Part shown: piece after piece, positions 11,597 to 49,500 of the stretch | How positions within the stretch are numbered: the stretch's first letter is position 1 | How the letters are laid out: the number at the start of each line of letters is the position of its first letter | Assembly (NCBI GenBank): GCA_035529315.1 | Contig: DATKWZ010000052.1 | Coordinates: 1 to 50,341, forward strand | Reading direction: 5' to 3' | Source of the DNA: Anaerolineae bacterium | GTDB taxonomy: Bacteria; Desulfobacterota; Desulfobacteria; Desulfobacterales; ETH-SRB1 | Length of the DNA: 50,341 nucleotides | Notes under the pieces: model-generated | The model's database searches: none | Told to the model about the DNA's origin: nothing | What the model saw: only the letters and a program-made list of their open reading frames with translations | Translations under genes and position numbers: made by a program

Positions 11597-11598
11597 AG

Positions 11599-12234: not shown

Positions 12235-12243
12235 GAGACTGCT

Positions 12244-12366: not shown

Positions 12367-12434
12367 TTTTGCTGATTTTTTTCATCCGTATGAGCAAAAC
12401 CGATCGGTTTTATTTCCACTTTCATATATCCCAT
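12363..12434 (-). pseudogene. Fragment resembling the TrmO/TsaA N-terminus
   Basis: This short frame reads MGYMKVEIKPIGFAHTDEKN and stops after three more residues. VEIKPIGFAHT is close to the usual start of TrmO (YaeB/TsaA) tRNA-methyltransferase family proteins, but the rest of the domain (about 130 residues) is absent. It overlaps the 40-residue Cys-rich frame by 4 nt. I read it as the stub of a deleted gene; a real small peptide is less likely. Confidence 0.35.
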
Positions 12435-12445
12435 AGGGGGCTATT

Positions 12446-13123: not shown

Positions 13124-13163
13124 ACGAATTCTTCCTTTTGTTAAAATTAAATGATATGAAAAT

Positions 13164-13814: not shown

Positions 13815-13923
13815 TTCTGAACCTCCTTATTCATAGCTACACCTTTCTTTCAAAAACGCCGCTAATATACACTGTGTATGTTTTGCGTTATATGCGCTTG
13901 CTGTCAGAAAAATTCAGATCTTT

Positions 13924-14280: not shown

Positions 14281-14294
14281 TTTCTATTTCTCCT

Positions 14295-14684: not shown

Positions 14685-14721
14685 AATAAAAGTTCTCCTT
14701 ATTTAATAATATTTTAATCCA

Positions 14722-15600: not shown

Positions 15601-15606
15601 TGAATT

Positions 15607-31544: not shown

Positions 31545-33431
31545 TTGAAGTTATTGCTTATAGATGACGAGGAAGGCATTAGAAAATTATTAAGCATATC
31601 TCTTAGAAACGAGGGATATGATGTTATAATGGCTGATAATGGACACAACGGTATTGAACTGTTTAAACAAAAAGCCCCTTCTATTGTTTTAACAGATATA
31701 AAAATGCCCGGGATAGATGGTATAGATGTTTTAAAAAGGATCAAAGAGATAAATCCGGATGCAGAGGTCATTATAATAACCGGGCACGGAGACATGGAAA
31801 AGGCTGTCAAGTCAATACAGCTTGGAGCTTCTGATTTTATAACAAAACCTATTAATGCGGACGCTCTTTCCAAGGCTCTTCAACGTGCTGAAGCAAAGTT
31901 GAAGGTCAAACAAACGCTTAAGCATTATACATTTAAGCTTAAAAAGGCGGTAAAGGAAAAGACAGTAGCGCTTGAAAAATCGCATAATGAAATAAAAACT
32001 CTTTGCGATATTACATGCAACCTCAGTGAAAAGGAATATCTTGCCGAAGCTTTTGATCTTATCATCGAGCGAATCAAAAATATATTTTCGTTTAAAGAGG
32101 CAATTCCCCTTGTTTTTAACGAAGTAAAAGACGAATTCATTAAGGTCAATGGTTATAGATGCTTGCAGGCAGAGGATAAAGAAGAAATTATATCTACCAT
32201 TAATTCGATGCATTATCCAATGGAGATTGCCGAACTGAGCGCTATGGGCTATGGATGGTTAAAAAACTTTGAAAATTATAAGTCTTTATCTGTTGTCCCG
32301 ATAGATAGAAATGGTGATATTGCCGGCGGAGTGATTCTGCTTGCATCTGAGGCTAATGTTTTTTCAGGAGATGATTTACGCTTTTTTTATCTTATGCTTT
32401 CGCAGGTTGCCTATGATATTAGAAGAATAGCGCTGAATGAGGAGAGGCTGAAGGGATTAGATGATAAGGTCGAAATGTTTTCAGGCTTTGGAGGCATCAT
32501 CGGGAAAGATCACAAGATGCGTCAGATTTATAATTTGATTTTAGATATAGCTCCTACCGATGCAACAGTATTGATTCAAGGTGAAAGCGGGTCAGGGAAA
32601 GAGCTTATTGCGAGGGCAGTTCATTTGCATAGCCATAGAAAAGACAAGCCTTTTGTTGTTGTGAATTGCTCTGCATACCCTCATACATTGCTCGAAAGCG
32701 AGTTGTTCGGCCACGAGAAGGGAGCCTTTACCGGCGCAACACATAAGAGGATCGGACGATTTGAACTGGCGAATGATGGGACCCTTTTTCTGGATGAAAT
32801 CGGAGAGATTCCTTTAATGTCACAGGTTAAGCTCCTAAGATTTCTCCAGTTTCAAAAGTTTGAGAGATTGGGAGGGCAGGAAACCATTGGAGTAAATGTC
32901 AGGATAATAGCAGCAACTAATAAAGATTTGCAAAAAGAGGTGGAGAAGGGAAGCTTTCGGGAGGATTTATATTACAGATTACATGTTATTCCAATAAATA
33001 TTCCCCCTCTCAGGGTTAGACGAAACGATATATCTCTTCTGGTTGAATATTTTATTGAAAAACTGAACTCGCAAGGGAATAAAAAAGTAAAAGGAATTTC
33101 TTCCGAGGCTATGAGGCTATTATTGGGCTATAATTGGCCTGGTAATATCAGAGAGCTGGAAAATATTATTGAACACTCTTTTATTCTTACCAAGGATGAA
33201 TATATTACCGAACAAAATTTTCCCCAGAATACGAGTTTTCCTATTGATAATATTGATAAAGATAAAAAAGAAAACATAAGCTCCTTTCAGCAAAACGAAA
33301 GACGATTTCTTGCAAGAGTCCTGGAAGAATACAGATGGAATAAATTGCGGGTAGCAAAAACACTAAACATCAGCCGCAGTACACTGTATGCAAAGTTGAA
33401 AAAGTATAATATTAATTCGGTTAATAAATAA
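31545..33431 (+). CDS. Sigma-54 response regulator with GAF domain
   Basis: 628 residues. Receiver (phospho-Asp about D51 in [11 protein letters not shown]), helical linker, GAF domain (about 140-295), AAA domain (from about 320) with Walker A GESGSGKE, intact GAFTGA loop, Walker [11 protein letters not shown] and arginine-finger segment [11 protein letters not shown], then a Fis-type helix-turn-helix ([13 protein letters not shown]). The start is TTG with GGGAGG upstream. It is close in the AAA and HTH parts to the dead activator at 41916. Receiver and GAF together would integrate the phosphorelay and a small ligand. Confidence 0.94.
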
Positions 33432-33448: not shown

Positions 33449-33916
33449 ATGGAGCATCATATGGAGAGTAAAAATAAAGCTTATATGTCAAGAGGCTCTA
33501 TCCTGATTGTCTTCCTGCTGATTTTATTTTCGTTTTTTTTATTTAATGCCGTTATTGCCGGACAAGAAAAGCAAGCAAAATATGTTGGAATGGAAAAATG
33601 CAATGACTGCCATTCCGAACACGTGACGAGCTATTATTCTTGGAAATACTCAAAAAGTTTCCGGATCATAAAGATGAGAAAAAAAGACAATGACTCAGGC
33701 TGTATACCGTGCCATACCACGGGATACGGAAAACAGGGAGGATTTACCAGTGTCCGGGAGACTCCGGGCATGATCAATAAGCAATGTGAAAGCTGCCATG
33801 GTCCTGCCAGCTTGCACCTCAAAGCTCCTACCAAGCGCGAACATCAAGAGACACTGAGTATTCCAAAGAACATTTGTACTTCCTGTCACAGCGGACACAA
33901 GCATCCGGGGTATTGA
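33449..33916 (+). CDS. Tetrahaem c-type cytochrome (cytochrome c554-like)
   Basis: 155 residues with an N-terminal membrane segment or signal (about 16-37) and four CxxCH haem sites: CNDCH (51-55), CIPCH (85-89), CESCH (113-117) and CTSCH (143-147). It would be periplasmic, perhaps membrane-anchored. It starts 18 nt after the sigma-54 regulator and is followed by a haem-binding kinase. I infer it may deliver electrons or redox information to that kinase; no enzyme activity is evident. Confidence 0.88.
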   Translation: MEHHMESKNKAYMSRGSILIVFLLILFSFFLFNAVIAGQEKQAKYVGMEKCNDCHSEHVTSYYSWKYSKSFRIIKMRKKDNDSGCIPCHTTGYGKQGGFTSVRETPGMINKQCESCHGPASLHLKAPTKREHQETLSIPKNICTSCHSGHKHPGY

Positions 33917-33996: not shown

Positions 33997-36081
33997 ATGT
34001 TCAGATGGGTAAATTTAAAGAGATTCATATCAGGAGGTTTAAGAACCAAGATAATATTAGGCGTGAGCATAATCCTGTTTACGGTGCTGGGCGCTTTTGG
34101 CTATTTTGATGTGATTTCCCAGGTTAATCGTTATACTGAAGAGAACAAAAAAATGGCCTTGGAAATAAGTGATACTGTTATGAAGAGCATAGAGTATCCC
34201 ATGCTGGATGGCGAAATGGAGCAAGTTCAGGCCATATTGGAGAGGCTGGGCACCCTGGAAGATATGGAAGTAGTTCATCTTTGCGATGACACTGGTATTA
34301 TCAAGCGTAATGGAACAAACCGTCATGATATCAACAGAAAAACCGTTTCTAAGATTACTCTTGAAGTGTTTAGCACAGGTAAATTAGCACAGGGTCTGGA
34401 AACGTTCCTTGAAAATGATGTAAATGTCAAGATATTGCGTTACGCCATTCCTGTCCATAATGAGAAGGCCTGTTATAAGTGTCACGGGGATGAAAAACCT
34501 CTCCTGGGGGTGTTGTCGGTTGGGTTTAGCTGGCGGCCGATTCAGAATGCGCTTGCCTCGGTGCGAAAGCAGAATATAATTTTAACTATTATATCCTTAG
34601 CAGTGGTCGCTTTTTCCCTGACCTTGTGGCTCAATAGATATACCGTTCGACCCATTGTTCAGCTAACTAAGGTCGCTGATGAGATTAGCCGTGTAAAATA
34701 TGTCCATGAACTTGAGAAATCCCATGGGCGATCTATACCTTGCTGGAGGCTGTTGAGCTGTGACAAAACGGATTGTCCAGCCTATGAAAACAATGCTATT
34801 CCGTGCTGGTATATGATGGATACATTATGTTTTCGCGAGCCGTCAGGAATATTTCCACAAAAATTAGATCAATGTATGAAATGCTCTGTTTATCAGGATT
34901 ATAAAGGAGATGAAACTGTTAGACTCCGGGATTCGTTTCAACACATGCTTTATAAGTTGAGATCTTATGAGAAAGAGCTCAGATTATCCGAGGAAAAATA
35001 TAGACTGTTGTTTAATACCAATCCTGATCCCATTTTTATAATAGACAGGGATAATTTCAAAATTCTGGATATCAATGAACGGGTTATTGATACCTACGGT
35101 TATTCGAGGGAAGAATTAATTAAAATGTCTTTCAGCGATTTGGGACATAAACAAACCGGAGAAGTTATAGATGGGTTCCAAAAACTTTCCTCCAGCCAAA
35201 GGGGATTCTTTACGAAAAAAAGGCATGTGCATAAGGATAAGAGTGTATTCTATGTAAACATTACGGCTTGCCCGTCAAAATATATGGGGAAAAATGTGTT
35301 AATTGTGGCAACTACTGATATTACAAAAAACATACAAAAGGAAGCCCAGTTAGTACAGGCCAGCAAAATGACTACTATAGGCACCATGGCTTCTGGTATA
35401 GCCCATGAATTAAATCAGCCTTTAAATGTTATCAAAATTGGAAGTAATTTTATTGAGAAAATAGTTAAACAAGGTAAAAAAATAAATATTGAAGACTTGA
35501 AAAGCGTGTCTGAAGAAATGAGCAGTTATGTGGACAGAGCATCTGCAATTATTAATCATTTAAGGGATTTTTCCCGAATATCTCCTTCTGCTCGGTCAAT
35601 GGTAGATATTAATAACCCCATCAGAGATGTATTTAAAGTATTGGGCCAGCAGATAAGATTGCATCAGATAGAAGTTGATCTTGAATTAGCCGAAGATTTG
35701 CCATCCATAATGGCTGATCACAACCGGCTTGAGCAGGTTTTTATCAATCTGGTAACCAATGCAGTGGATGCTATAGATGAAAAGGTCCACAAAATGGGGC
35801 CAGAGTTTGAAAAAACTATGACAATAAAATCATTTGTGCAGGAAAATCAGATTGTGGTTATTGTATCTGATACTGGTATAGGTATTCCCGGCAGCAATAT
35901 AGAAAGAATATTTGAGCCGTTTTTTACCACCAAGGATGTAGGTAAGGGTACAGGACTGGGCATGTCCATAAGTTATGGAATTGTTCGTGACTATGGAGGA
36001 ACAGTCGACGTAAGGAGCAAAGAAGGTGTTGGTACAACCTTTGAGTTGAGATTTCCTGTTTGTTTACACGCATCGGAGTAA
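33997..36081 (+). CDS. Haem-binding sensor histidine kinase with two-CW domain
   Basis: 694 residues. Membrane helix 1 (about 18-39), periplasmic sensor domain with one haem motif CYKCH (159-163) in the form seen in c-haem sensor kinases, membrane helix 2 (about 193-212), HAMP-like stretch, a Cys-rich two-CW domain (249-298: [24 protein letters not shown]), PAS domain (about 330-450), HisKA with IAHELNQP and an HATPase ending in [20 protein letters not shown]. It follows the tetrahaem cytochrome by 80 nt. It probably reads periplasmic redox state through its haem. Confidence 0.9.
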
Positions 36082-36086
36082 TTGAT

Positions 36087-37655
36087 ATGCCAAAAATATT
36101 ACTGATTGACGATGAAGAAGGTATTAGAAAACTTCTCAGCATGTCTCTTAAAAGCGATGGATATGAAGTGATAGCCGCTGAGAGCGGACAACAGGGTATT
36201 AATTTTTTTAAAAAAGAATTTTTTCCAATAGTGCTTACTGATATAAAAATGCCTGGCATGGACGGCATACAGGTTTTAAAGGAGATAAAAAAAATTAATC
36301 CAAGCACAGAGGTTATTGTTATTACCGGTCATGGTGATATGGAATCCGCAGTTCAGTCTCTTCATCTGGGTGCATCAGATTTTATTAACAAGCCGGTTAG
36401 CGATCAGGTCCTTTCAGTTGCCCTTGAAAGGGCTGAAGATCGGCTGAAAACGAAAAAGATGTTGAACAGGTATGCCAATGAATTGTGGAAAATGGTAAAG
36501 GATAAAACAGAAGAGATAAAGAGAAGATATGAATTTGAGAATAAACTTGTACAGCGGTCGATTGATGGAATTATTGCCACTGACAGAGAAGATAATATTA
36601 TAATATTTAACAAGGCTGCTGAAAAACTTTTTGGATATACCGAGAATGAAGTTAAAAGAGAAAAAAAAGCAGAAGATCTTTATCCCGTAGAGATAATGCA
36701 GAAGATCTCTGATGCTTTTTCAGATAAGACAAATTGTGCTAATGTTATTTTTACAGGACAGGATACGTTTTTAAGGGCAAAAAAAGGTGGATTAGTACCG
36801 GTCAGATTTTCAGGCGCGATACTTTATGAAGACGAAAGACCTATAGGCAGTGTTGGCTTTTTCCAGGATCTTAGAGAAATTAAACAACTGCAAAAAGAAT
36901 TAATTCAGTCGGAAAGACTGGTAGCTGTTGGCCAGACAGTAGCCGGTCTTGCACACGGCATAAAGAATATTTTAAATGGCTTAAAAGGTGGGGTCTATAT
37001 CGTTAACACCGCCTTGAAAAAGTCGCCTGATAGCTTTGCCGGTTCTGGTGCAGAAAAGGGGCATCCGGAAAGCAAACTAAGAACAGGTTGGGACATGGTG
37101 GAAAGAAATATTAATAGAGTTTCTGATCTGGTTTTGGGTCTTCTCAGTTATTCAAAGGAACGTGAACCGGAATATGAAAAATATGATCCAAATATTATTG
37201 TGGATGAAGTCTACAATCTTATGGAGTCAAAGGCTAAAAAAAATGATGTTACACTGATAAGGAGCTTGGACAAGGAAATAGGCGAAGTTTATCTTGATCC
37301 AAAAGGGATACACACCTGTCTTCTTAATCTGGTTTCAAATGCGATTGATGCCTGCATTTTTGACTCTGATACAGAAAAAAATTGGCAGGTAAAGCTTGGG
37401 GTGCATCATGACAAGGAAGGCGGTGTGATTTACGATGTGGTTGATAATGGTTGCGGTATGGATCAGGAAGTTAAAGATAGAATTTTTACCGAATTTTTCA
37501 GCACAAAGGGAAATCGTGGCACAGGCCTTGGGTTGCTTGTATCTCAAAAGATCATTCATGAGCATAAAGGAACCATGGAGGTGGAATCGGAACCAGGCAA
37601 GGGCACAAGGTTTTTAATCAGGCTCCCGAAACAAGAATTTACAGAGAAAGAATAA
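36087..37655 (+). CDS. Receiver-PAS-histidine kinase hybrid
   Basis: 522 residues from the ATG at 36087, which follows GGAG and matches the family start [12 protein letters not shown]; an in-frame ATG at 36060 lies inside the previous gene. Order: receiver (D in [11 protein letters not shown]), linker helix, PAS (about 160-275), HisKA-like helix AGLAHGIKNILNG (His in an HGIKN motif, unlike the usual HEIRN), and HATPase (ending EFFSTKGNRGTGLGLLVSQK). Its receiver is very similar to that of the sigma-54 regulator at 31545, so the two probably share phosphoryl donors. Confidence 0.88.
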   Translation: MPKILLIDDEEGIRKLLSMSLKSDGYEVIAAESGQQGINFFKKEFFPIVLTDIKMPGMDGIQVLKEIKKINPSTEVIVITGHGDMESAVQSLHLGASDFINKPVSDQVLSVALERAEDRLKTKKMLNRYANELWKMVKDKTEEIKRRYEFENKLVQRSIDGIIATDREDNIIIFNKAAEKLFGYTENEVKREKKAEDLYPVEIMQKISDAFSDKTNCANVIFTGQDTFLRAKKGGLVPVRFSGAILYEDERPIGSVGFFQDLREIKQLQKELIQSERLVAVGQTVAGLAHGIKNILNGLKGGVYIVNTALKKSPDSFAGSGAEKGHPESKLRTGWDMVERNINRVSDLVLGLLSYSKEREPEYEKYDPNIIVDEVYNLMESKAKKNDVTLIRSLDKEIGEVYLDPKGIHTCLLNLVSNAIDACIFDSDTEKNWQVKLGVHHDKEGGVIYDVVDNGCGMDQEVKDRIFTEFFSTKGNRGTGLGLLVSQKIIHEHKGTMEVESEPGKGTRFLIRLPKQEFTEKE

Positions 37656-37748
37656 TTTTACTTGTAATATTTTATAAATTTATTGTATTATTTTAAATAT
37701 AGTTACAAATATGCTTTTAAAGGTCTCATAGAACAAAGGAGGAGTATT

Positions 37749-38141
37749 ATGGGTAAAAAGGTTCTGATTGTTGATGATGATACTGATATAATAACATTTG
37801 CGTCAAGCGTTATAGAAAACAGCGGCTATACTCCGATAACCGCATTAAACGGCGAAGAAGGTATTAATAAAATTAGAGCGGAAAAACCGGACGCAATTAT
37901 ATTAGATGTATTAATGCCTAAAGAAAGCGGGATTAAGATGTACAGGGAAGTCAAAACAGACCCCGCGTTTAGTGCTATTCCGGTAATAATACTTTCCGGA
38001 ATAGCTCAAAGAACCTTTACCCGTTCTCAAAAGGCCCTTGCAGAGTTTGAGGGTCAAGACGTACCTGAACCGGATGCCTATCTGGAAAAACCGGTTGAAC
38101 CGGAAGAACTGGCGGCAACCCTAAAGAAGTTCTTGTCCTGA
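37749..38141 (+). CDS. Lone receiver-domain protein
   Basis: 130 residues from the ATG at 37749, where AAAGGAGGAG precedes the start. Receiver fold with acidic VDDD near the start, phospho-Asp in IILDVLMPKE and a conserved Lys in LEKPVEPEEL. No output domain. As the last gene of the phosphorelay cluster, it is likely to act by protein contact or as a phosphate sink. Confidence 0.85.
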   Translation: MGKKVLIVDDDTDIITFASSVIENSGYTPITALNGEEGINKIRAEKPDAIILDVLMPKESGIKMYREVKTDPAFSAIPVIILSGIAQRTFTRSQKALAEFEGQDVPEPDAYLEKPVEPEELAATLKKFLS

Positions 38142-38201: not shown

Positions 38202-39098
38202 TTAAGGTATCAGCAGTGTTGGAAATTCAGAAGTTTCTGTTATTTTCTGAGATACACTGCCAAGCCAGCGTGCCCGCCAGGCTCCCTTTCCTGTTGTACC
38301 CATGACAATCATAGTGGCGCTGTGTTCACGCGCGGCGGTTTCAATCTGTGAGGCCACGTCACCCATGTAAAGATGAAAATCCGCTTCAACCCCTTCATCT
38401 TCAAAAGTTGTGCAGACATCTTTCAGTCTTTTTTTATTTTCCTTTTGAATCTTCATAAGGTCAGCTTTTGATTTGCCCTTTACAACATCATCACTGATAA
38501 CATGTATTACCACCACATTTTTTACAGCCTTTTTTATATCTATTAACTGTTCCAACGCCCTTTCGCATGGAGATGACCAGTCTGTTACCAGTAGAGGTCT
38601 ATCAAATGGCTTATCATTAACCCTGCCTGACGGCAGCATATATTTAAGAACCAGCACAGGAGTTTTTGACCGCCTGAGGAGTTCCATTGTGGTTGAACTT
38701 GCAAACAGTTTCTCTAATTTTGTTCTTTTATAAGCTTCTGTTACGATGAGATCTACACCTTCTGTTTCAGCCGTTGAAAGAATTTTTGGGAGGGGATCTC
38801 CAACAACCACATAGGCGCCGCATTCCATTCCTTTTTCAAATACGCTTTCCGCCCAATCAATAAAACGCACATCTGCCATTTGTTTTAATCTAACATCTTC
38901 ATCTTTAAGGTAACCTGTCCCACGATGCATGGCAACTGCTTCTCTGTTTATTACATGGAGAAAAACCACATGATTAAGCCCGGCCTTTCTTAGTTCCATC
39001 AATGATTCCAAGGCATCAAACCACAGTTCATCAAAGTTGGTTGCAAACAGCATCTTTTTAAATTTCATATAACTTCCTCCTAAACTTATGGATCCCAT
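38202..39098 (-). CDS. Tandem universal stress protein (UspA x2)
   Basis: 298 residues, two UspA domains. The second domain has the ATP-binding signature VMGTTGKGAWRARWLGSVSQ (G-2x-G-9x-G pattern). The first domain has a degenerate version. Cytoplasmic stress protein; the specific role is not deducible. It is divergent from the second USP gene and lies between a redox phosphorelay and an antiporter operon. Confidence 0.86.
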   Translation of the reverse strand: MGSISLGGSYMKFKKMLFATNFDELWFDALESLMELRKAGLNHVVFLHVINREAVAMHRGTGYLKDEDVRLKQMADVRFIDWAESVFEKGMECGAYVVVGDPLPKILSTAETEGVDLIVTEAYKRTKLEKLFASSTTMELLRRSKTPVLVLKYMLPSGRVNDKPFDRPLLVTDWSSPCERALEQLIDIKKAVKNVVVIHVISDDVVKGKSKADLMKIQKENKKRLKDVCTTFEDEGVEADFHLYMGDVASQIETAAREHSATMIVMGTTGKGAWRARWLGSVSQKITETSEFPTLLIP

Positions 39099-39321
39099 TT
39101 TTAAATTTTATAAAGATAATCAGAAAGTGTTTAGATTGTCAAGTTTTTATTGTGTGTCTGAGCATATGTATTGTATGGGCAAACAGGTAGTATAAAGACA
39201 ATAATGCAGCAGAAAAAAAATGCATAAAATTTTACTGTATGATATTGCGGCAAGAAGTGTTCGTTATTTGTACACAAAATTATGTAAAGATATAAATATG
39301 TTCCTAAACATAACTATTTTT

Positions 39322-39338
39322 TGTCCAGTTATTGGACA
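39322..39338. promoter_or_regulatory. Inverted repeat TGTCC-N7-GGACA, candidate operator
   Basis: TGTCC (39322-39326) and GGACA (39334-39338) flank seven bases in the divergent region between the two USP genes, about 224 bp from one start and 444 from the other. Size and symmetry suit a dimeric regulator, but it may be chance. Confidence 0.3.
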
Positions 39339-39474
39339 GATTGTGTTAGGATCATTGATTGCACTTTGTTTTTGAGCTCAAAAATATTAAACAAAACAGT
39401 TAGATATGAATTGCAACCGAAAAGGCATGAATGTTGCAATACTTTAATTTTTATATCATGTTTAATGATAATGA

Positions 39475-39678
39475 ACTCGTAAAAAGTCTCGAAATCGTCA
39501 TGCCGGACTTGATAAGCCTGCCCCGTACTTGATACGGGGGCATCCAGAATGCATTGAGTTTGCTGGATAGCGCTAATGGTTAGCGCTGACGCTTTACTAC
39601 GTGTCCGGCTGGAGTTTATCCCGCACTTGATGCGGGGCCGGAATGACGGAAAAGAGAACTTTTTGACTTTTTACGATT
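39475..39678 (+). repeat. MITE-like element, long version (copy 3)
   Basis: Perfect terminal inverted repeats GTAAAAAGTC (39479-39488) and GACTTTTTAC (39665-39674). Inside are two related hairpins (CCCCGTACTTGATACGGGG and CCCGCACTTGATGCGGG), and a GATAGCGCT ... TTAGCGCTGA block shared with copy 1. It has no open reading frame and no transposase nearby. Compared with copy 2 it has about 100 extra internal bases. Confidence 0.8.
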
Positions 39679-39781
39679 TTATCAATGATCGATAAGGTCG
39701 GTATAGATTCTTAGAGCAGGCATTATATGTATTTATGAGTTTTCATTATTGACTGCGTATAAACTATGACATAGGGAAGTT

Positions 39782-40555
39782 ATGGACGTAAAAAAAATTG
39801 TTTATGCTACAAATTTAAGCGAGCCCACCTTTCGTGTGCTGGATGGATTGTCGGGTCTCAAACGTCTTGGTTTGCAAGAGATTGTTCTTCTTTCAAACAA
39901 CGCAAGTCCTGATCTGTTTGAGGCATGGAAAAAGAGATTGAGTGATTTAGGGATACATGTAAGCATTAAAATTGATCCATGCAAACTCTCCGCAAGTGTT
40001 TTAAACATAATTCAAAAAAACAATATATCACTTATTATATTGCATTTTAATAAAAAAGAGAATCGAAGAATATTTGGCGGTTCAATTTTAAATGATATTA
40101 TCAAGTCCACTAATATTCCTCTTCTTATTGTCGATAAGGACGAAAAAGGATTAAATTTTAGTTCAAAAGGAATGTTTGAGCGTGTTTTGTTGACGGCAGA
40201 TTGGTCACCAGAATATGAAAAGGCATTGCAACAGGTACTCGATTTTAAAGAATTAATAAGTGAACTCGAACTTGTAAATGTAATATTCGAAAAATTGAGC
40301 ATGCGCGATGTGCAACAGCTAATGGAAGATATGATTAATACCCGTGAAATGTGTTTAAAGCTCGGTGTTTCAACAGAATACCACATGTATGCCGGAGAGA
40401 TTAGTGAAGAAATCCTGCGCGCTGCTCATGAATATGAATCTACTGTGATAGTTATGGGCGCAACACGCAGGCAGAAGTTTAAGGATATTTTTTTAGGCAG
40501 GCCGGTGTGTAGAGTAATAGAAAAAGCTCCGATACCTGTGTTGCTGGTTCCTTAA
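39782..40555 (+). CDS. Universal stress protein with degenerate ATP motif
   Basis: 257 residues, a tandem USP similar in layout to the neighbour at 38202. The C-terminal motif reads VMGATRRQKFKDIFLGRP, in which the glycines of G-2x-G-9x-G are partly replaced, so ATP binding is doubtful. It ends 75 nt before the antiporter operon and may be cotranscribed with it. Confidence 0.82.
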   Translation: MDVKKIVYATNLSEPTFRVLDGLSGLKRLGLQEIVLLSNNASPDLFEAWKKRLSDLGIHVSIKIDPCKLSASVLNIIQKNNISLIILHFNKKENRRIFGGSILNDIIKSTNIPLLIVDKDEKGLNFSSKGMFERVLLTADWSPEYEKALQQVLDFKELISELELVNVIFEKLSMRDVQQLMEDMINTREMCLKLGVSTEYHMYAGEISEEILRAAHEYESTVIVMGATRRQKFKDIFLGRPVCRVIEKAPIPVLLVP

Positions 40556-40630: not shown

Positions 40631-41344
40631 ATGGAAGTAACAGTACTGGTTCAAGCCACATATAAGTCATTTGAGATGCTAGGCGAAGCAAGAAATAAGG
40701 CCAGGCAGATATTGGATACCGCCGCCAGACTCACATCCGAGACCCAGGCTGTGCATCGAAAAAGGGTAGAGGCAATATTTACAGGCGCCAAACAAAGAAA
40801 AGCCGAAGCCACCAGGTTTATTGCAACATTTATTATTATGTTCGGTTTCTGGCTGCTTTTGTCAGGAAAATATGATTTATTTCATATCAGCATCGGAGTT
40901 CTTTGTTGCGGCCTGGTGTCACACGTATCGCATGGTCTGCTTTTTGCCAATCCAAGGGCCGGGGATATGCGTGTTATAGTTAAGAGATTTATTGTTTATA
41001 TCCCATGGCTAATGTATCAGATTGTCCTGTCCAACCTGCATGTTGCAAGGCTGGCCCTGTGGCCCAAAAGGCTTATTGATCCGAAGATAATTGAGTTTAA
41101 GTCAAAACTGGAAAGTGATATCTCGATGGTTACTCTTGCTAATTCGATAACCCTTACCCCTGGCACTATCACAGTAGATGTGAAAGACGGTGTATTTTAT
41201 GTGCACGCTGTCAGCAAGAAGGTGGCGGAAGATCTTATGACCGGCGAGATGGAGGACAGGATCGCTCATATATTCATGGAAGCCGACCATGTGTATGTTC
41301 AGGATGTTCTTGATATGGCGCCTATCTTTGTAGAATTAAAGTAG
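40631..41344 (+). CDS. mrpE: Mrp/Mnh antiporter subunit E with N-terminal extension
   Basis: MrpE-type (MnhE) membrane subunit of a multisubunit cation/proton antiporter. The conserved part begins near residue 65 (FIATFIIMFGFWLLLSGKYD) and shows the typical ITLTPGTITVDV motif near 176-187. The first ~63 residues are a soluble, helical, charged extension (for example ARNKARQILDTAARLTSETQ) not found in ordinary MrpE of about 160-170 residues. First gene of the operon running to 49.5 kb. Confidence 0.87.
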   Translation: MEVTVLVQATYKSFEMLGEARNKARQILDTAARLTSETQAVHRKRVEAIFTGAKQRKAEATRFIATFIIMFGFWLLLSGKYDLFHISIGVLCCGLVSHVSHGLLFANPRAGDMRVIVKRFIVYIPWLMYQIVLSNLHVARLALWPKRLIDPKIIEFKSKLESDISMVTLANSITLTPGTITVDVKDGVFYVHAVSKKVAEDLMTGEMEDRIAHIFMEADHVYVQDVLDMAPIFVELK

Positions 41345-41407
41345 ACGAGTTATGATTAAAGATAACTTTTCATATTATTATAATTTGGAGAATTGAGGCT
41401 TGGCAAT

Positions 41408-41899
41408 ATGGTAATTAAACATACAGTAGACATGACCAGACAATCGGACGATGTTATTGTTAAGACACTTTCCAGGTTATTAATACCCTTTATGCAGATT
41501 TATGCTCTCTATGTTATCGCGCACGGGCATTACAGCCCTGGAGGAGGATTCCAGGGAGGAGTAATTTTAGGGGCAGCATTAATTCTATTGGTAATAACTT
41601 ATGGGCTGGACAATGCTTTGCGCATGATGTCAGAAAGATTAAACACCGTTTTCTGCAGCCTTGGGGTCTTTATATATGCTGGAATTGGGTTGTTATGTGT
41701 AATACTTGGCGAAAACTTTCTGGATTATAAGGCGCTTGATCAGTTTCTGCATGTTGGGATACCCCAGGCAAGATCTCTCGGCATTCTTGGTGTTGAGACA
41801 GGTGTGGGAATCGCTGTCATGGCTGTTATGCTCTCAATCTTTTTAGATATATCTACCGGAGGGCTTCCTTCGACAAAAGATCAGAATCAATCTGATTAA
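41408..41899 (+). CDS. mrpB: Mrp/Mnh antiporter subunit B
   Basis: MnhB-domain membrane protein of 163 residues from the ATG at 41408 (an in-frame TTG lies at 41393, too close to the GGAG at 41387 to be preferred). The diagnostic segment HGHYSPGGGFQGGVILGAAL marks the MrpB family; four hydrophobic helices follow. It precedes the inactive sigma-54 activator, which interrupts the antiporter genes. Confidence 0.9.
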   Translation: MVIKHTVDMTRQSDDVIVKTLSRLLIPFMQIYALYVIAHGHYSPGGGFQGGVILGAALILLVITYGLDNALRMMSERLNTVFCSLGVFIYAGIGLLCVILGENFLDYKALDQFLHVGIPQARSLGILGVETGVGIAVMAVMLSIFLDISTGGLPSTKDQNQSD

Positions 41900-41915: not shown

Positions 41916-42854
41916 TTGAGAATACAGGACACTAATAAAGGATCTGCAAAGATGAAGCAGATCTATAATATGATATTGAATCTTGCTCCCACTGATGCCA
42001 CAGTTTTGGTTTGTGGTGAAGAAGGAACGGAAAAAGCATTGGTGGCAAGATCTATTCATTTAAACAGCGCGAGAAAAAACTTCCCCTTTGATGTGTATAA
42101 CTGCTCGGCTTATCCGCAGTTTATTGTAGAAAGCGGTCTTTTGGGCCATGAAATAGGCGCCTTTGAAGGGGCGGTATCTCAGAAAAAAGGATGTCTGGAA
42201 CTAAATAATGGCGGGACAGTGTTTTTGTGTGAGATTGACAAAATAGCTCCTTTGACCCAGATCAAACTTCAGGAATTCTTGCAGGATGGATCAATAAAAA
42301 GGCTTGGAGGAAAAAAAACTATAAAGACAGATGTCAGGATAATCGCCGCTGTTAATACTGATCTGGGAAGGGAGGTAGAAAGCGGAACTTTTAACGAAGA
42401 ATTTTCTTATATGTTGAATGTGATTAATATACATATACCTTCTTTGAGGCAGAGGAAAGATGATATCCCCCTTTTAGTAGAACACTTCTTAGAAAAGCTG
42501 AATGTAGAAATAGGAAAAAAGGTTAGAGGTGTTACATCCGATACCATGCAGATATTAATGGACTATTCCTGGCCGGGTAATATCAAGGAGTTGGAAAACT
42601 CAATACAACACGCTTTTCTTCTGACAGAGGATGAAAAAATCGAGCGTGAATTTCTGCCATCTCGAATCTTAACTGATGTTTTGATAGAAAAGGATGAAGG
42701 GATAAGCTCTTTTGAGGAAAATGAAAAAAGATTCCTTATGAAAATTTTGCAGGAGTGTAACTGGAATAAATTACAGGTTGCAAAACAGCTCAATGTGAGC
42801 CGCAGCACACTATATGCAAAGCTGAAAAAGTATAACTTAACAACAAAACAATAA
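41916..42854 (+). CDS. Catalytically dead sigma-54 activator-like protein inside antiporter operon
   Basis: 312 residues, a bEBP AAA domain plus Fis-type helix-turn-helix, without receiver. Key residues are lost: Walker A reads GEEGTEKA (34-41) instead of GESGSGKE, the sigma-54 loop reads GAFEGA (81-86), Walker B reads TVFLCE (101-106, Asp to Cys), and both arginine fingers are gone (GTFNEEFSYML, 157-167). The recognition helix ([13 protein letters not shown]) is the same as in the active regulator at 31545. The start is TTG at 41916, or ATG at 41952. ATP hydrolysis and sigma-54 contact are therefore unlikely, so it probably acts as a DNA-binding modulator or antagonist. Confidence 0.88.
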   Translation: MRIQDTNKGSAKMKQIYNMILNLAPTDATVLVCGEEGTEKALVARSIHLNSARKNFPFDVYNCSAYPQFIVESGLLGHEIGAFEGAVSQKKGCLELNNGGTVFLCEIDKIAPLTQIKLQEFLQDGSIKRLGGKKTIKTDVRIIAAVNTDLGREVESGTFNEEFSYMLNVINIHIPSLRQRKDDIPLLVEHFLEKLNVEIGKKVRGVTSDTMQILMDYSWPGNIKELENSIQHAFLLTEDEKIEREFLPSRILTDVLIEKDEGISSFEENEKRFLMKILQECNWNKLQVAKQLNVSRSTLYAKLKKYNLTTKQ

Positions 42855-42907: not shown

Positions 42908-43174
42908 ATGGAAGATTTTTATTTAGGCGTCAGCATTTTTCTTTGCTTGCTTGTTTTAGTCTGTTTGTATCGGGTAGTATTTGGACCGACTATTATTGAC
43001 AGGGTTGTAAGTGTTGGAGCAATCGGCACAAAAACGCTGGTGGTACTGGCACTTATGGGATTTATCTACGGCAGGATAGAGATGTTTTTGGATATCGTCA
43101 TGGTTTACGCTATTCTGAACTTTATCGGGACACTGGCGGCAGCAAAGTACTTTGAAGGGAGAGGTGAAATTTGA
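42908..43174 (+). CDS. mrpF: Mrp antiporter subunit F
   Basis: 88-residue membrane protein with three helices and the MrpF segment CLYRVVFGPTIIDRVVSVGA. A GGAG ribosome site precedes it. The stop overlaps the mrpG start. Confidence 0.88.
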   Translation: MEDFYLGVSIFLCLLVLVCLYRVVFGPTIIDRVVSVGAIGTKTLVVLALMGFIYGRIEMFLDIVMVYAILNFIGTLAAAKYFEGRGEI

Positions 43175-43497
43175 TGGAAGTTGTTAAAACAATATCCATT
43201 ATTTTGATTTTGATAGGATGTTTCTTTTTTACTACCGGCACTATCGGTCTGATACGTTTCCCGGATTTTTATTCAAGGATGCATGCCACCGGAAAAGGAG
43301 ACACCCTTGCAGTGCTCATATGTCTTGTTGGTCTTGCATTATATCATGCCTTTAACCACGGAGCTATTTTAGACTGTATTAAGCTGGTCGTTATTGCTGT
43401 TTTTATATTTTTAGCTAATCCTACGGCGACTCATGCCATTTCCAGGGCCGCTTTTCGGTGTGGTGTTAAACCTTGGATCAGGGGGGAAAACAAATGA
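43171..43497 (+). CDS. mrpG: Mrp antiporter subunit G
   Basis: 108-residue membrane protein with the MrpG motif GTIGLIRFPDFYSRMHATGKGDTLAV (seen within residues 22-47). ATGA-type overlaps with both neighbours show tight coupling. Confidence 0.9.
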   Translation: MMEVVKTISIILILIGCFFFTTGTIGLIRFPDFYSRMHATGKGDTLAVLICLVGLALYHAFNHGAILDCIKLVVIAVFIFLANPTATHAISRAAFRCGVKPWIRGENK

Positions 43498-43739
43498 TCT
43501 GGCAACTCGATCTTATTCTCTGTATCTTTGTCATTATCTGCGCGATTGCAGCTATCACTATTAAGGATCTTTTGGCTGCTGTTATTATTCTTGGCGCTTA
43601 CAGCTTTTTTATGTGTATCCTCTGGACTGAGATGGGGGCGGTGGATGTTGCTTTTACCGAAGCATCCGTAGGTGCCGGAGTTGGAACAGTATTGTTTATT
43701 GCGGCTGTCAGTAAAACAAAAAGGAGGTCAAAGGATTGA
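43494..43739 (+). CDS. DUF4040 / MbhD-like antiporter subunit
   Basis: 81 residues from the ATG at 43494, which overlaps the mrpG stop as ATGA. Motifs LLAAVIILGAYSFFMCILWTE and DVAFTEASVGAGVGTVLFIA are typical of the DUF4040 segment that in Bacillus MrpA is the C-terminal part and in Mbh/Mbs complexes is a separate subunit. So MrpA is split here. Confidence 0.82.
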   Translation: MIWQLDLILCIFVIICAIAAITIKDLLAAVIILGAYSFFMCILWTEMGAVDVAFTEASVGAGVGTVLFIAAVSKTKRRSKD

Positions 43740-44020
43740 AAACTATCGCGATACTCATAATAGTTTTAACAGGAGGATTGCTTATATACGGTGTTGAAGA
43801 TATGCCTGATTGGGGCGATCCAAATTCTCCCGCCAACGCCTATGTTTCACCGGAGTATATCAAGGATTCGCTGAAAAAAACAGCAACTCCCAATATGGTT
43901 ACTGCTGTTCTGGCTGATTACAGAGGATATGATACCATGGGTGAAACCACTGTTATTTTTACTGCCGGGATCGGCTGTATTCTGATGTTAAGAAAAAAAC
44001 GCAAGGGAGAAGGAGCCTGA
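43736..44020 (+). CDS. MbhE-like small antiporter subunit
   Basis: 94 residues with a start TTG at 43736 overlapping the previous stop (TTGA) and AGGAGG upstream. One hydrophobic helix at each end, with a soluble middle that contains the segment FTAGIGCILMLRK near the end. It matches the MbhE/MnhB-N type position and shape in Mbh-like complexes; family assignment is by context as much as sequence. Confidence 0.7.
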   Translation: MKTIAILIIVLTGGLLIYGVEDMPDWGDPNSPANAYVSPEYIKDSLKKTATPNMVTAVLADYRGYDTMGETTVIFTAGIGCILMLRKKRKGEGA

Positions 44021-44021
44021 T

Positions 44022-44423
44022 ATGCTTGAGTACATTGTCAGTAAATACAACTTCTGGGCGTATGTCATTTTGCTGCTCATCGGGCTTTATGCAATGGTGG
44101 GCAAGAAAAATCTGGTTAAGAAGCTGATCGGAATGAATATATTTCAGTCTGCTGTGATTCTCTTTTATGTTTCCATCGGCGTAAAGAAGGGGGGAGCGAC
44201 TGTTCCGATATTTCTGGGGGATGCACATGCGGCGCACGGACATGCTGTTATTGATGCCGCCAGTTATATTAATCCTCTTCCTCATGTACTGATGCTTACG
44301 GCTATAGTGGTTTCCATTGCTACAACAGGCGTTGCCCTTGCGGTGCTTATACTGATTTTCAGAAGATATAAGACCTTAGAGCTTGACGAAATTATGAAAA
44401 TAAGAAAAGACACTGGAGTTTAG
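44022..44423 (+). CDS. mrpC: Mrp antiporter subunit C (NuoK-like)
   Basis: 133-residue NuoK/MrpC-type membrane protein: GLYAMVGKKNLVKKLIGMNI, then a hydrophilic insert rich in Ala/His (DAHAAHGHAVIDAAS) and a final region with HVLMLTAIVVSIATTGVALA, as in MrpC. It starts 1 nt after the preceding stop and ends 2 nt before mrpD. Confidence 0.9.
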   Translation: MLEYIVSKYNFWAYVILLLIGLYAMVGKKNLVKKLIGMNIFQSAVILFYVSIGVKKGGATVPIFLGDAHAAHGHAVIDAASYINPLPHVLMLTAIVVSIATTGVALAVLILIFRRYKTLELDEIMKIRKDTGV

Positions 44424-44425: not shown

Positions 44426-45919
44426 ATGGCAACACATTTTCCTGCTCTTTTAATAGTTATTCCTTTAATATCCGCTCTTTTTGTGCCGGTTATTGGATGG
44501 TGGAAAAAAGGACTGTGCTACCCATTGGTCGTTGCCGTTCTCGTTGTTCCACTTATATCAGCTCTTGGCATTTTAAATAGAGTAATAGAGAGCGGGCCAT
44601 TTTCATATTATCTCGGAGGATGGGCTCCTCCGTGGGGTATCGAGTATGCATTAGATTATCTCAATGCATTTGTCTTGGTAATAATAACGGCTATTAGTCT
44701 AATAGTTTCCATATATTCCAAAAAGAGCGTTGAAAAGGAATTGCCCGAAAAAGTTGTTCCATTCTATACACTTTTCCTTCTCCTTGTTACAGGCCTTCTC
44801 GGAATAGTTGTAACAGGAGATCTTTTCAATGTGTTTGTATTTTTAGAAATCGCTTCTCTTTCATGTTATGCCCTAATGGCTATAGGCAGGGATGGAGCTC
44901 CTTTTGCAACGTATCGATATATTATGATGGGTACAGTCGGGGCCTCGTTTTATCTTCTTGGCGTTGGTTACTTATATATAGTAACAGGGTCGCTGAATAT
45001 GGCAGATGTGTCAAAACTGTTGCCACCTCTCTATGATTCTAAGGTTGTACTGACGGCAGGCATCTTTATGATCGTGGGCATAGGCCTTAAGATGGCGCTT
45101 TATCCTTTGCATGCATGGGCTCCCAATGCATATGCCGATGCTCCTTCAGCGGTCAGCGGCCTGGTTGCGCCCTTAATGACAAAGGTGGCGGCATACATGA
45201 TGATACGGGTTATGTTTACTGTTTTTAAGCCCGTTTTCTTCATAGAGATAATTCCTGTGGCAACCATACTCACCTGGCTGGCGGCTGTTGCCGTAATCCT
45301 TGGTTCAATATATGCCATCGCCCAAACTGATCTTAAAAAGATGCTGTCTTACTCAGTTGTGGCTCAGATCGGATACATTGCTTTGGGAATAGGGCTGGCA
45401 AACAAATCCGGTCTTACCGGTGCAGTGCTCCATATTCTAAATGAAGCTTTTACAAAAGGCTGTGTGTTTCTGGTAGCAGGGGCTATCGTCTATAAAATGG
45501 GCGCTTGCAATATTAATGAATTTAAAGATTTATATAGAAAAATGCCGTTTACTATGTCGGCCTTTCTGATCGGTGCGTTTTCTATGGTCGGCATACCGCC
45601 TACATGCGGTTTTTTCAGCAAGATATATTTAATCATGGGTGCAATTGCTGCCGATAAATGGATTTTTGTAGCTGTTCTGTTATTTAGCAGCATTCTCAAT
45701 GTAATCTATTTCTTTAGAGTAATACAGATCGCGACATTTGAAACACCAATGCCGGATTATGGCCGCGATAAGGCTTACGAGGCAGTTTACATGGATGAAG
45801 TTCCTTTAAGTATGCTTATCCCTATACAGATTATGGCTGCAGGGATACTGTTGTCCGGTATTTTCAGCTCAAAGATTATATCAACGGTAATTCAATTTGT
45901 AATACCTGTAGGTTTCTAA
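44426..45919 (+). CDS. mrpD: Mrp antiporter subunit D (proton-pumping)
   Basis: 497-residue proton-conducting transporter (NuoN/NuoM-like fold) with about 14 helices. Conserved residues include the FVFLEIASLSCYALMA Glu, the Lys-containing GLKMALYPLHAWAPNAYADA segment and the QTDLKKMLSYSVVAQIGYIA motif. First of three large antiporter-like subunits of the operon. Confidence 0.92.
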   Translation: MATHFPALLIVIPLISALFVPVIGWWKKGLCYPLVVAVLVVPLISALGILNRVIESGPFSYYLGGWAPPWGIEYALDYLNAFVLVIITAISLIVSIYSKKSVEKELPEKVVPFYTLFLLLVTGLLGIVVTGDLFNVFVFLEIASLSCYALMAIGRDGAPFATYRYIMMGTVGASFYLLGVGYLYIVTGSLNMADVSKLLPPLYDSKVVLTAGIFMIVGIGLKMALYPLHAWAPNAYADAPSAVSGLVAPLMTKVAAYMMIRVMFTVFKPVFFIEIIPVATILTWLAAVAVILGSIYAIAQTDLKKMLSYSVVAQIGYIALGIGLANKSGLTGAVLHILNEAFTKGCVFLVAGAIVYKMGACNINEFKDLYRKMPFTMSAFLIGAFSMVGIPPTCGFFSKIYLIMGAIAADKWIFVAVLLFSSILNVIYFFRVIQIATFETPMPDYGRDKAYEAVYMDEVPLSMLIPIQIMAAGILLSGIFSSKIISTVIQFVIPVGF

Positions 45920-45934
45920 GTAGGAGGACTTTAC

Positions 45935-47965
45935 GTGGATACGTTGCAAATAGCATGGTTATGTGTATTTTTCCCCTTTATGGGTGTGGTTTTCATCTTC
46001 CTGCTTGCCAAGGTACATCCTAAGCTAAGAAATGCCGCGGCTGTACTTTTCCCCTTTTTATCCGCCCTGGGCAGCCTGAAGCTCTTGACGCATCTGTTTC
46101 ATCCGGAAACATTGCCTCTAGAAAGTTCTGTGAAGTGGATTGAGATACCCTTTGTAGTGGAATTCGGGGTATTGGTGGATCCGCTCAGCATTATTCTGAC
46201 AACTGTCGTTGCCGTCATAAGCTTTATTATTATTGTGTACTGCCTTGGCTATATGAAGGGAGATCCGGGCATAACCAGGTTTTTAATGTTGGTAAACCTT
46301 TTTATCGGAAGTATGCTTCTGTTGGTACTTACGAATAATTTGCTGTTTCTTTTTGTTGGATGGAAACTTGTTGGTTTGTGCAGTTATGGTTTGATCGGTT
46401 TTTATTACAGGGATGAGAAAAAATACTGGATAGGTGGTCCCTCTCCAACCAAGTTTGTTACCCCAACCCACTGCGGATTAAAAGCATTGGTGGTAACAGG
46501 CGTGGGAGATCTTATCATGTTAGGCGGCATACTAATTATATTTTACTATGCCAAGACCTTGAATATCATGGAGATTTACACTACAGCGTCAATCTGGATG
46601 CCTGAAATGGCCAAGACGCCCGGTATAATCACATTAACTACCGTGCTTCTCCTTGCAGGCCCTATTGGTAAATCAGCTCAGTTTCCCTTTCATGAATGGC
46701 TTCCGGAAGCCATGGCAGGTCCGGGTCCGGTTTCAGCTTTGATTCATGCGGCGACCATGGTTAAGAGCGGGGTTTATTTGGTAGCCAGGTTTATTCCAAT
46801 CTTTTATTACGGCTACTGGGTGGCCGGCATCAGTGAAGCTTCTTTGTTTTTTACGATTGTAGCATGGGTGGGTGTTATTACGGCATTTGTTGCGGCAACT
46901 CAGGGCATGGTCGCCTTAGAGCTTAAAAAGGCCCTTGCATTTTCCACTGTAAGCCAGATCGGCTATATGTGGGTGGGTCTGGGCATGGCCGGCTTGAGCG
47001 GATCAGTGTTATTAGGCGGAACCACATCCGGAATATTTCACCTTGTAAGTCATGCTGTGTTCAAGGCATGTCTCTTCCTGTGCGCCGGTTCTGTAATACA
47101 TACTGCTCATTCAATTTACATGAACGATATGGGTTCAATGAGAAAGTATATGCCGCTAACCTGGATTTTTATGCTGATAGGCGCTTTATGTTTGATGGGG
47201 ATTCCGCCTCTGCCGGGTTTCTTCAGCAAGGATGCCATCTTACTTTCCGCTCTGGAAGCCCATCAAATACCGATATTTATTATTGCCGTCATTACCGTAG
47301 TTTTAACGGCATTTTACACAACACGCATGGTCGGTATGGTATTTTATGGACAGGAGAGCAAACAGATAAAACATATAAAGCAGGAAGGAGGACATCTTCA
47401 TGAGGCCTCCCCAACCATGTGGGTTGCGTGCGGTGTTCTGGCTGTAATCATTGTGGCACTTGGCCTGGTAGGGCCGCAAGTAGAGCATCTCCTAAAAGAA
47501 GGATTTAAGACCAACCTGGTTGGAACCCTTTCTTTACCGCTTATACCTGGAGGAGAACATGCGTTTAATTATCATACACTTGTTTTAGTGCTGTCTATAG
47601 GGTCTATACTGTTAGGTGCCATACCAGCCTATATGATGTATATTGCCAGAAAATGGGATCCAAAGGCTATTGTGGAGGGAAATCCAATTATACATTTCTT
47701 TCATCAGTTCTTCTGGAATAGATGGTTCATTGATGCTTTTTATTTAAAAGTTTTTATGGACGGGATTTTTAAACTGTCGGACATTGTGGCTTATACTGTT
47801 GAAGAAGGGTTTGACAATTTCGTCCACAGGAAAATTCCGACTTTTTTTACGCAGAGATGCCCTGCGGTGATGTTTAAACTGCGGACCGAGTCGGATGATC
47901 TTTTGTATAATATATCCTATGTTATTATTGTCTTTGTTTGCCTGTTGTTTGTGGTATTAAAATAA
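45935..47965 (+). CDS. NuoL/MrpA-like proton-conducting subunit
   Basis: 676-residue antiporter-like subunit starting at a GTG (AGGAGG upstream). Key segments: LLFLFVGWKLVGLCSYGLIG, QFPFHEWLPEAMAGPGPVSA, HAATMVKSGVYL and LKKALAFSTVSQIGYMWVGL, with a long C-terminal part as in NuoL. It lacks the C-terminal MrpA modules, which are separate genes here. Confidence 0.9.
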   Translation: MDTLQIAWLCVFFPFMGVVFIFLLAKVHPKLRNAAAVLFPFLSALGSLKLLTHLFHPETLPLESSVKWIEIPFVVEFGVLVDPLSIILTTVVAVISFIIIVYCLGYMKGDPGITRFLMLVNLFIGSMLLLVLTNNLLFLFVGWKLVGLCSYGLIGFYYRDEKKYWIGGPSPTKFVTPTHCGLKALVVTGVGDLIMLGGILIIFYYAKTLNIMEIYTTASIWMPEMAKTPGIITLTTVLLLAGPIGKSAQFPFHEWLPEAMAGPGPVSALIHAATMVKSGVYLVARFIPIFYYGYWVAGISEASLFFTIVAWVGVITAFVAATQGMVALELKKALAFSTVSQIGYMWVGLGMAGLSGSVLLGGTTSGIFHLVSHAVFKACLFLCAGSVIHTAHSIYMNDMGSMRKYMPLTWIFMLIGALCLMGIPPLPGFFSKDAILLSALEAHQIPIFIIAVITVVLTAFYTTRMVGMVFYGQESKQIKHIKQEGGHLHEASPTMWVACGVLAVIIVALGLVGPQVEHLLKEGFKTNLVGTLSLPLIPGGEHAFNYHTLVLVLSIGSILLGAIPAYMMYIARKWDPKAIVEGNPIIHFFHQFFWNRWFIDAFYLKVFMDGIFKLSDIVAYTVEEGFDNFVHRKIPTFFTQRCPAVMFKLRTESDDLLYNISYVIIVFVCLLFVVLK

Positions 47966-47994
47966 TTTCTTATGACATTACGGGGATAAAATAG

Positions 47995-49500
47995 ATGTCT
48001 CATATTCTTTTGCAAATAATAATTGTTCCGCCGATTGCTTCTTTATTTATACTCTTGACCAGGCACCTGATAGGAAGAAAAGCAGGATGGATAGCGGGTT
48101 TTAGTCTTTTATATTCAACAGCACTTTTAGCTATGGCATGTGTAAGAGTCTATCATGGTGAAGTAATTGTTGAAGAATATCCCTTTATTGATTCGGCGAT
48201 CACCTTTGGTCTTCTCGGCGACGGGTTGAGTTTGCCGGTCGCGTTGATAATTAACGGCCTTTGCGCTGCTCTTGCATTTTATGCAATACATTATGTAGAT
48301 CACAGAATAGAGGCAATATACGGTGATGTGGATGAGCGGACATATTTAAACCACTATACACGATTTTATTTCATGTTCCTTGGTTTTCCTATGGGTTTTA
48401 TGGGCGTATGCCTTGTAAAGAACTTGATAGCGATGTATTTTTTTCTGGAAGTGCTACCCATTCCGCTATATTTTATTATGGCTACTTTTGGGTATGTTGA
48501 CAGAGTAAGAGTGGCTATGATCTGTTTGATGTGGGCTGTTATCGGAGCGTCATTTTTTATCGCCGGATTTTTGATGACTTATAGTCAGATCGGAAGTTTT
48601 AATATCTCGGATATGAGTGCTCTTGCAGGGAATCCGATGACTTTCTGGATTATATTTGTGCTTCTTATTGCAATACTGATAAAAATGGCGGCTGTGCCTT
48701 TTCATGTTTGGATGCCATGGGTCCATGCAGAGCATCCCACGTGCATAGCTGGTCTTCTTGCTGTTTATGCAAATGTTGCGGCCTATGTATTGTTACGAGT
48801 AATAGTCTTCCCGCTACCTGCCGATTTTAAAGCATTTTCCATCCCTTTAATGGTAATGGCGCTTGTAACAATGGTATATGGTTCCCTTCTGACTATGGCG
48901 CAAACAGATGTAAAACGTTTTGCCGCCTGTTCAACAATAAGCCAGCTTGCATATTCGCTTCTTGGCATATCAGCTCTTACTATAGCAAGCATTGAAGGAG
49001 GTATGTTCTTTTTCCTGGGACACATTATGGGGAAAACATTACTCTTTTCAACGGCAGGAATACTGGTTTATACGACAGGGACAAGGGATATGCGGCAGAT
49101 GGGCGGACTTGCGCAGAAAATGCCCATTACAGCGGCGCTATGGATCATGGGAGCATTGATGCTTTCCGGTTTTCCGCCGATGAGCAGCTTCCCCGCGGAA
49201 TGGATTATGTTTACAGGCATATTTGAAACAGGAATTCAGACCATGCCCACCGGACTTATGGTGGCCATTTTCGGAGCCGGCGCAATTATACTGACGGTTG
49301 CCTATACGTTCCGGTCTGTGAAGATAATATTTTTCGGCCCGTTAAATCCGGATCTGGCGAACGATAAAATCAAGGATCCACCTTTAACAATGAGTATTCC
49401 GCTTCTTATGATAGCAGGCGTATCAATTACGCTGGGATTGTATCCTAAACTGGTTCTTAATCTTTTTGATTATGTGATAGGTGGGATAGCGATCCCATAG
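47995..49500 (+). CDS. NuoM/MrpD-like proton-conducting subunit (third)
   Basis: 501 residues, again an antiporter-like membrane protein: YFFLEVLPIPLYFIMATFGY, KMAAVPFHVWMPWVHAEHPT, QTDVKRFAACSTISQLAYSL. It is the last gene of the run. With the two preceding genes it gives three potential proton channels in one complex. Confidence 0.88.
   Translation: MSHILLQIIIVPPIASLFILLTRHLIGRKAGWIAGFSLLYSTALLAMACVRVYHGEVIVEEYPFIDSAITFGLLGDGLSLPVALIINGLCAALAFYAIHYVDHRIEAIYGDVDERTYLNHYTRFYFMFLGFPMGFMGVCLVKNLIAMYFFLEVLPIPLYFIMATFGYVDRVRVAMICLMWAVIGASFFIAGFLMTYSQIGSFNISDMSALAGNPMTFWIIFVLLIAILIKMAAVPFHVWMPWVHAEHPTCIAGLLAVYANVAAYVLLRVIVFPLPADFKAFSIPLMVMALVTMVYGSLLTMAQTDVKRFAACSTISQLAYSLLGISALTIASIEGGMFFFLGHIMGKTLLFSTAGILVYTTGTRDMRQMGGLAQKMPITAALWIMGALMLSGFPPMSSFPAEWIMFTGIFETGIQTMPTGLMVAIFGAGAIILTVAYTFRSVKIIFFGPLNPDLANDKIKDPPLTMSIPLLMIAGVSITLGLYPKLVLNLFDYVIGGIAIP

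Follow-up and report, generated by a model that had tools for sequence, protein, structure and literature searches.

A catalytically altered duplicate of a sigma-54 activator conserved next to the Mrp antiporter genes of the ETH-SRB1 family and its relatives

Gene content of the locus and features of the dead copy

The stretch of DNA analyzed in the current work (50,341 nucleotides of contig DATKWZ010000052.1, hereafter the window) contains an Mrp/Mbh-type antiporter operon, which extends from a universal stress protein gene (usp1) at 39782 to at least 49500 and which harbors, between mrpB and mrpF, a paralogue of a sigma-54 activator (bEBP), referred to as the dead copy. The corresponding genes are listed below, where the subunits from mrpE to mrpC were assigned by domain search and the three large subunits were named from their ORF sequences and context.

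31545..33431, + strand: active sister bEBP with receiver, AAA+ and HTH domains, nearest relative of the dead copy
33997..38141, + strand: signaling genes between the active sister and the operon, comprising the next three entries
33997-36081, + strand: PAS histidine kinase
36060-37655, + strand: receiver-PAS-kinase hybrid
37683-38141, + strand: single-domain receiver
38202..39098, - strand: universal stress protein gene, divergently oriented, beyond the promoter region
39782..40555, + strand: universal stress protein (usp1), first gene of the operon
40631..41344, + strand: mrpE
41393..41899, + strand: mrpB/MnhB
41916..42854, + strand: dead bEBP paralogue (dead copy), 312 aa, between mrpB and mrpF
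42908..43174, + strand: mrpF
43171..43497, + strand: mrpG
43473..43739, + strand: MbhD-like subunit
43736..44020, + strand: MbhE-like subunit
44022..44423, + strand: mrpC (Oxidored_q2)
44426..49500, + strand: three large antiporter-like subunits, mrpD/mrpA-like (44426-45919, 45935-47965 and 47995-49500)

The active sister has intact Walker A/B, GAFTGA and arginine finger motifs, is present on the contig of the dead copy wherever that contig extends far enough, and is encoded in a genome that also specifies RpoN. Between its gene and that of the PAS histidine kinase lies a small multihaem cytochrome c gene (33449-33916), and the kinase itself has a CxxCH haem-type motif, the two together hinting at redox or haem sensing.

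The frame of the dead copy starts with TTG and is uninterrupted by stops over 312 codons, in agreement with the preliminary description of this locus. At the 16 loci inspected the start codon is TTG or GTG and never ATG, which may keep the level of the protein low. Pfam analysis revealed PF00158 (Sigma54_activat, 9e-49), AAA_lid_14 (3e-25) and HTH_8 (6e-13), corresponding to an AAA+ core (about residues 10-176), a lid (178-253) and a HTH (265-308), and returned neither a receiver nor any other N-terminal domain. The best solved structure is that of ZraR (PDB 1ojl, E 6e-73), while an AlphaFold model (15 rows) has a mean pLDDT of 64.6 with values below 50 in the P-loop region. Within the genome 18 matches other than the dead copy itself were obtained, one of which is a short HTH-only match, and the closest is the active sister (56% identity over 302 aa with its residues 324-625, E 1e-119). 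Matches in a plasmid collection were all below 60% identity, the best being annotated as ordinary activators. Another sigma-54 activator homologue of this genome (G000:C9:19438-20346) contains one internal TAA stop and is a candidate true pseudogene for comparison.

With the active sister as reference, Walker A is changed from GESGSGKE to GEEGTEKA (Gly39 to Glu), Walker B from LDE to LCE (Asp105 to Cys), the L1 loop from GAFTGA to GAFEGA (Thr84 to Glu), the arginine finger segment from FREDLYYR to FNEEFSYM (Arg160 to Asn and Arg166 to Met), and the Arg of the lid motif GNIRELEN is replaced by Lys224. The preliminary description had claimed a change in every catalytic residue class; this holds for the Walker A Gly, the Walker B Asp, the GAFTGA Thr and both arginine fingers, but not for Walker A Lys40, Walker B Glu106 and the switch Asn62, which are unchanged. 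A Glu next to the Lys of the P-loop would be expected to obstruct phosphate binding, although the dead copy might still bind nucleotide, given that it still has the Lys of Walker A and the Glu of Walker B. The HTH (residues 265-308), previously described as nearly identical to that of the active sister, is 70% identical overall, but its recognition stretch of 13 residues is indeed identical.

The dead copy thus resembles NtrC/ZraR-type bEBPs (PF00158 plus HTH_8) in descent and, along its entire length, in AAA+ core, lid and Fis-type HTH, and differs from them by the lack of a receiver and by replacement of the Walker A Gly, the Walker B Asp, the GAFTGA Thr, the fingers and the lid Arg. It shares with PspF/HrpR-type bEBPs, which lack a sensory domain, the AAA+ plus HTH composition; unlike those active proteins, it is not expected to be active.

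Distribution and selective constraint of the dead copy

Relatives were sought in 58 genomes and in one GTDB contig scan; in addition, 291 genomes of the order were searched with a motif pattern and 395 of the phylum with a profile. The dead copy was recovered from 18 genomes in four families, each time adjoining Mrp genes: 11 belong to the window's family, two to a second family of the order (G079 and G173), four to a third family (G307, G344, G407 and, with a partial copy cut by a contig end, G379), and one to a fourth (G362). The window's family bears the name ETH-SRB1 in PMC10553843, an assignment made by way of GTDB scan matches to contigs of Eth-SRB1 and of Seep-SRB1a strain CR9063A, and some of its members are syntrophic partners of methane- and ethane-oxidizing archaea (PMC10553843). 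In 17 of the 18 genomes it separates mrpB from mrpF or, where the contig runs out, is found after mrpB, and in G362 it is located after two stress-protein genes and before mrpE. The phylum profile scored above 500 bits for the carriers alone (the G379 copy being partial), with the active partners of these genomes at 433-463 bits and the next protein at 397 bits. The motif pattern gave 14 matches in the order, two of which (G141 and G206) look like chance matches by spacing and sequence.

All 17 full-length copies carry Glu in place of the Walker A Gly with the Lys kept, Cys, Ser, Thr or Asn in place of the Walker B Asp, Asn or Leu in place of the first arginine finger, and Glu, Asp, Lys or Tyr in place of the GAFTGA Thr unless the loop is deleted. 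The second finger is replaced by Met in 12 of the 17, the loss of both fingers claimed from the window's copy therefore being true of that copy but not of those from G006, G307, G344, G407 and G362, in which this Arg is present. In the same alignment 64 of 64 other activators have the Walker A Gly and Lys, the Walker B Asp and Glu and both arginine fingers intact; since none of these departs at the Walker A Gly, the Walker B Asp or either finger, the losses in the dead copy exceed what would be expected by chance. In the tree, the 17 full-length dead copies form one clade (100/99), which is sister to 13 active partners.

Values of dN/dS (Nei-Gojobori) were 0.06-0.17 for the dead copy, with G006 left out; the active partner gave 0.12-0.20, and the Mrp subunits reached about 0.23. 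Between matched species, the ratio of divergence of the dead copy to that of the active partner (p-distance) was 0.60 for the HTH, 1.04 for the lid and 1.37 for the AAA core. On these sequence comparisons the dead copy is under purifying selection, and the ratios together with the low dN/dS indicate that its DNA-binding part and its AAA+ body have both been kept without catalysis. A decaying pseudogene or an assembly error would account for the disappearance of several catalytic residues, yet it is incompatible with full-length frames in 17 genomes, dN/dS of 0.06-0.17 and an identical P-loop substitution across four families, and its probability is regarded as negligible; the same evidence discards a strain-specific error. 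The checks named in the preliminary description, namely a search for orthologues at the mrpB-mrpF site, an inspection of these for regained Walker residues and a dN/dS test, yielded orthologues that are present and intact, no copy that regains the Walker A Gly, the Walker B Asp, the L1 Thr or the first arginine finger, and a signal of purifying selection. Its suggestion of selection for a new job following catalytic loss is strongly supported by these outcomes.

Two types of Mrp operon occur in the window's family, one ordered E-B-[dead copy]-F-G... and accompanied by the signaling genes, and one ordered E-F-G-D-E-B-C... that lacks them. The reordered type is represented by G003, G008, G009 and G013 (L076-L079), where neither the dead copy nor the signaling cluster was found in the stretch read, the contig of G003 being short; in G005, mrpE and mrpB were both unmatched.

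Promoter region and a mosaic cluster

The region upstream of usp1 contains the following elements, the palindromes having been recognized by footprinting.

39258..39274, no strand: distal enhancer-like palindrome TGTTCGTTATTTGTACA
39322..39338, no strand: proximal enhancer-like palindrome TGTCCA-GTTAT-TGGACA
39423..39438, + strand: sigma-54 -24/-12 promoter AGGCATGAATGTTGCA, matching TGGCACG-N4-TTGCW at 10 of 12 positions

The -24 element opens with AGG rather than TGG, and the -24/-12 element is conserved, at an equivalent position in the alignment, at 11 loci from two families. The palindromes are positioned approximately 101 bp (39322) and 165 bp (39258) upstream of the -24 element, and their spacing of 64 bp in the window is 64-67 bp in most relatives. 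The palindrome at 39322 is the sole exact match to the consensus TGTMCA-N5-TGKACA (obtained by footprinting, to whose definition sites of the window's family contributed) in the 2.2 Mb genome. Four genomes, G000, G001, G002 and G362, have one exact match each, every time at the dead-copy locus, while the palindrome-bearing G007 and G010 have two exact matches each, all elsewhere, and the third-family genomes G307 and G344 have none, the sites at their loci being imperfect. G362, which was left out of the motif derivation and differs in gene order, displays a promoter (TGGCACATCTTTTGCT) preceded by two palindromes at a spacing of 64 bp, and its dead-copy gene has one perfect palindrome 29 bp upstream. 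This arrangement of promoter and palindromes was found upstream of none of nine Mrp operons without the activator pair. One of the genomes with such an operon (G293) has a 12/12 palindrome within the operon body, so single matches can be due to chance.

A sigma-54 promoter with palindromes was the only type found at the locus. The palindromes would appear to belong to both the active sister and the dead copy, and their unique consensus, in conjunction with the sigma-54 promoter, fits the dead copy as a putative competitor at the enhancers of its paralogue. A perfect -24/-12 sequence (TGGCACGCAAGTTGCT, 12/12, 11344-11359) was noted downstream of another activator gene (9646-11016). Furthermore, between the sigma-54 promoter and usp1 lies an element of 212 bp (39471-39682) whose 18-bp terminal inverted repeats contain CTCGTAAAAAGTC; as the genome has 48 matches to it, full or partial, it represents a dispersed repeat inserted in the leader.

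These features bear on a role of the dead copy at sigma-70 promoters, where it would act alone in the manner of TyrR, VpsR or the NtrC proteins of Rhodobacter and Caulobacter. A survey from 2011 lists about 110 GAFTGA-deviant homologues, some with Thr to Glu, a substitution of the L1 loop already recorded for homologues from Fusobacterium and Jannaschia (PMC3162934), and several of the characterized GAFTGA-defective bEBPs act at sigma-70 promoters (PMC10274813), so that such regulators are established. The dead copy shares with this group (TyrR, DhaR, HupR, VpsR, YplP and the Rhodobacter/Caulobacter NtrC) an altered or deleted sigma-54 contact loop, but it also has an altered P-loop and altered arginine fingers, where Caulobacter NtrC needs its Walker residues (PMC10274813), and it is the sister of an active activator encoded in an operon with a sigma-54 promoter. 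The proximity of a sigma-54 activator, the position of the palindromes at enhancer distance and the lack of a sensory domain further argue against a sigma-70 role, which is deemed improbable.

The cluster of G006 constitutes a natural swap. Its active sister and usp2 are 84% identical to the window's family and 57-64% to the third family, whereas its usp1, mrpE, mrpB and dead copy are 56% identical to the window's family and 78-79% to the third, and its promoter region is also third-family-like. The mosaic spans L051 (G006) 9560-16300, with a recombination breakpoint near the start of usp2. As the two halves differ in family affinity, the dead copy moves with the operon and its enhancers, and not with its partner activator.

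That the dead copy is located between mrpB and mrpF and travels with Mrp genes in G006 would also suit a non-transcriptional role, for instance as an antiporter assembly factor or chaperone whose HTH is kept for dimerization or other contacts. Against this stand the HTH being the most conserved domain, the position of the G362 gene upstream of mrpE and next to stress-protein genes rather than among the Mrp subunits, and the Mrp operons of relatives that manage without a dead copy; little probability is accordingly given to such a role.

A putative self-limiting brake on the operon

Sigma-54 activators are ATP-driven switches. It is proposed, with an intermediate degree of confidence and from sequence comparison, that the dead duplicate of the local activator may serve as a self-limiting brake on the operon that this activator is predicted to control. 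Both paralogues would bind the palindromes by means of near-identical recognition helices, and the signaled, active sister would switch on the usp1-mrp operon, upon which the dead copy would accumulate in proportion to operon expression. It would then occupy the enhancers, or be built into the ring of the activator as a non-functional member, and transcription of usp1-mrp would be damped. Since the dead copy has no receiver domain, how strongly it acts would depend on its own level and not on a signal. The single clade, the shared losses, the purifying selection, the slowly evolving HTH, the promoter with its palindromes and the G006 swap together suggest such a brake, while the AAA core, still constrained, would be less needed in a pure DNA competitor and counts against that form of it. 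The retained Walker A Lys and Walker B Glu, the AGG of the -24 element, and the genomes whose exact matches lie elsewhere (G007 and G010) or are missing (G307 and G344) also weigh against the brake. Co-assembly of the dead copy with its sister into non-productive rings, which would amount to a stoichiometric, ATPase-level negative feedback on sigma-54 transcription, is a more tentative proposition and on balance rather doubtful. We know of no described example of a natural dominant-negative AAA+ activator.

The main alternative to a brake, although an unlikely one, is that the dead copy is a structural co-activator, which would form mixed hexamers with the active sister, either as a required subunit or as a modulating one, and would aid activation by tuning ring assembly or enhancer occupancy. 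It comes first among the alternatives since the AAA core, like the lid, is still constrained and paralogous bEBPs are known to co-activate; the dead copy also co-occurs with the active paralogue. To our knowledge, the members of the known hetero-oligomeric pairs are all catalytically competent. Such pairs (HrpR/HrpS, VnfA1/VnfA3 and FleQ/FleT) hetero-oligomerize and co-activate (PMC9542535), and they resemble the present pair in being paralogues with matching recognition helices and, in our case, likely shared enhancers, but differ from it in that here one member lacks the catalytic residues and is encoded in the presumed target operon. Most GAFTGA mutants are unable to activate, and the arginine finger works in trans, its target being the neighboring ATP (reviewed in PMC7175178). 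With both catalytic faces of the dead copy altered, few if any active sites would be completed in trans, and in G006 a third-family-type dead copy is paired with an active sister of the window's family type, 57% identical to that of the third family, which argues against a tightly co-evolved interface.

As far as could be found in the open-access literature, a duplicate that is dead at multiple motifs, conserved as such and located inside the apparent target operon of its active sister is undescribed, and no paper was found there that links sigma-54 to Mrp antiporters. If the brake proposed above is true, a conserved, disabled duplicate encoded in the very operon being switched would illustrate how negative feedback evolves within an ATP-driven switch, and the pair of active sister and dead copy, together with the usp1 promoter, would be a defined system for testing such feedback. 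In the ETH-SRB1 family, where Mrp and Rnf are believed to conserve energy together, the current work names a likely regulator for the Mrp antiporter.
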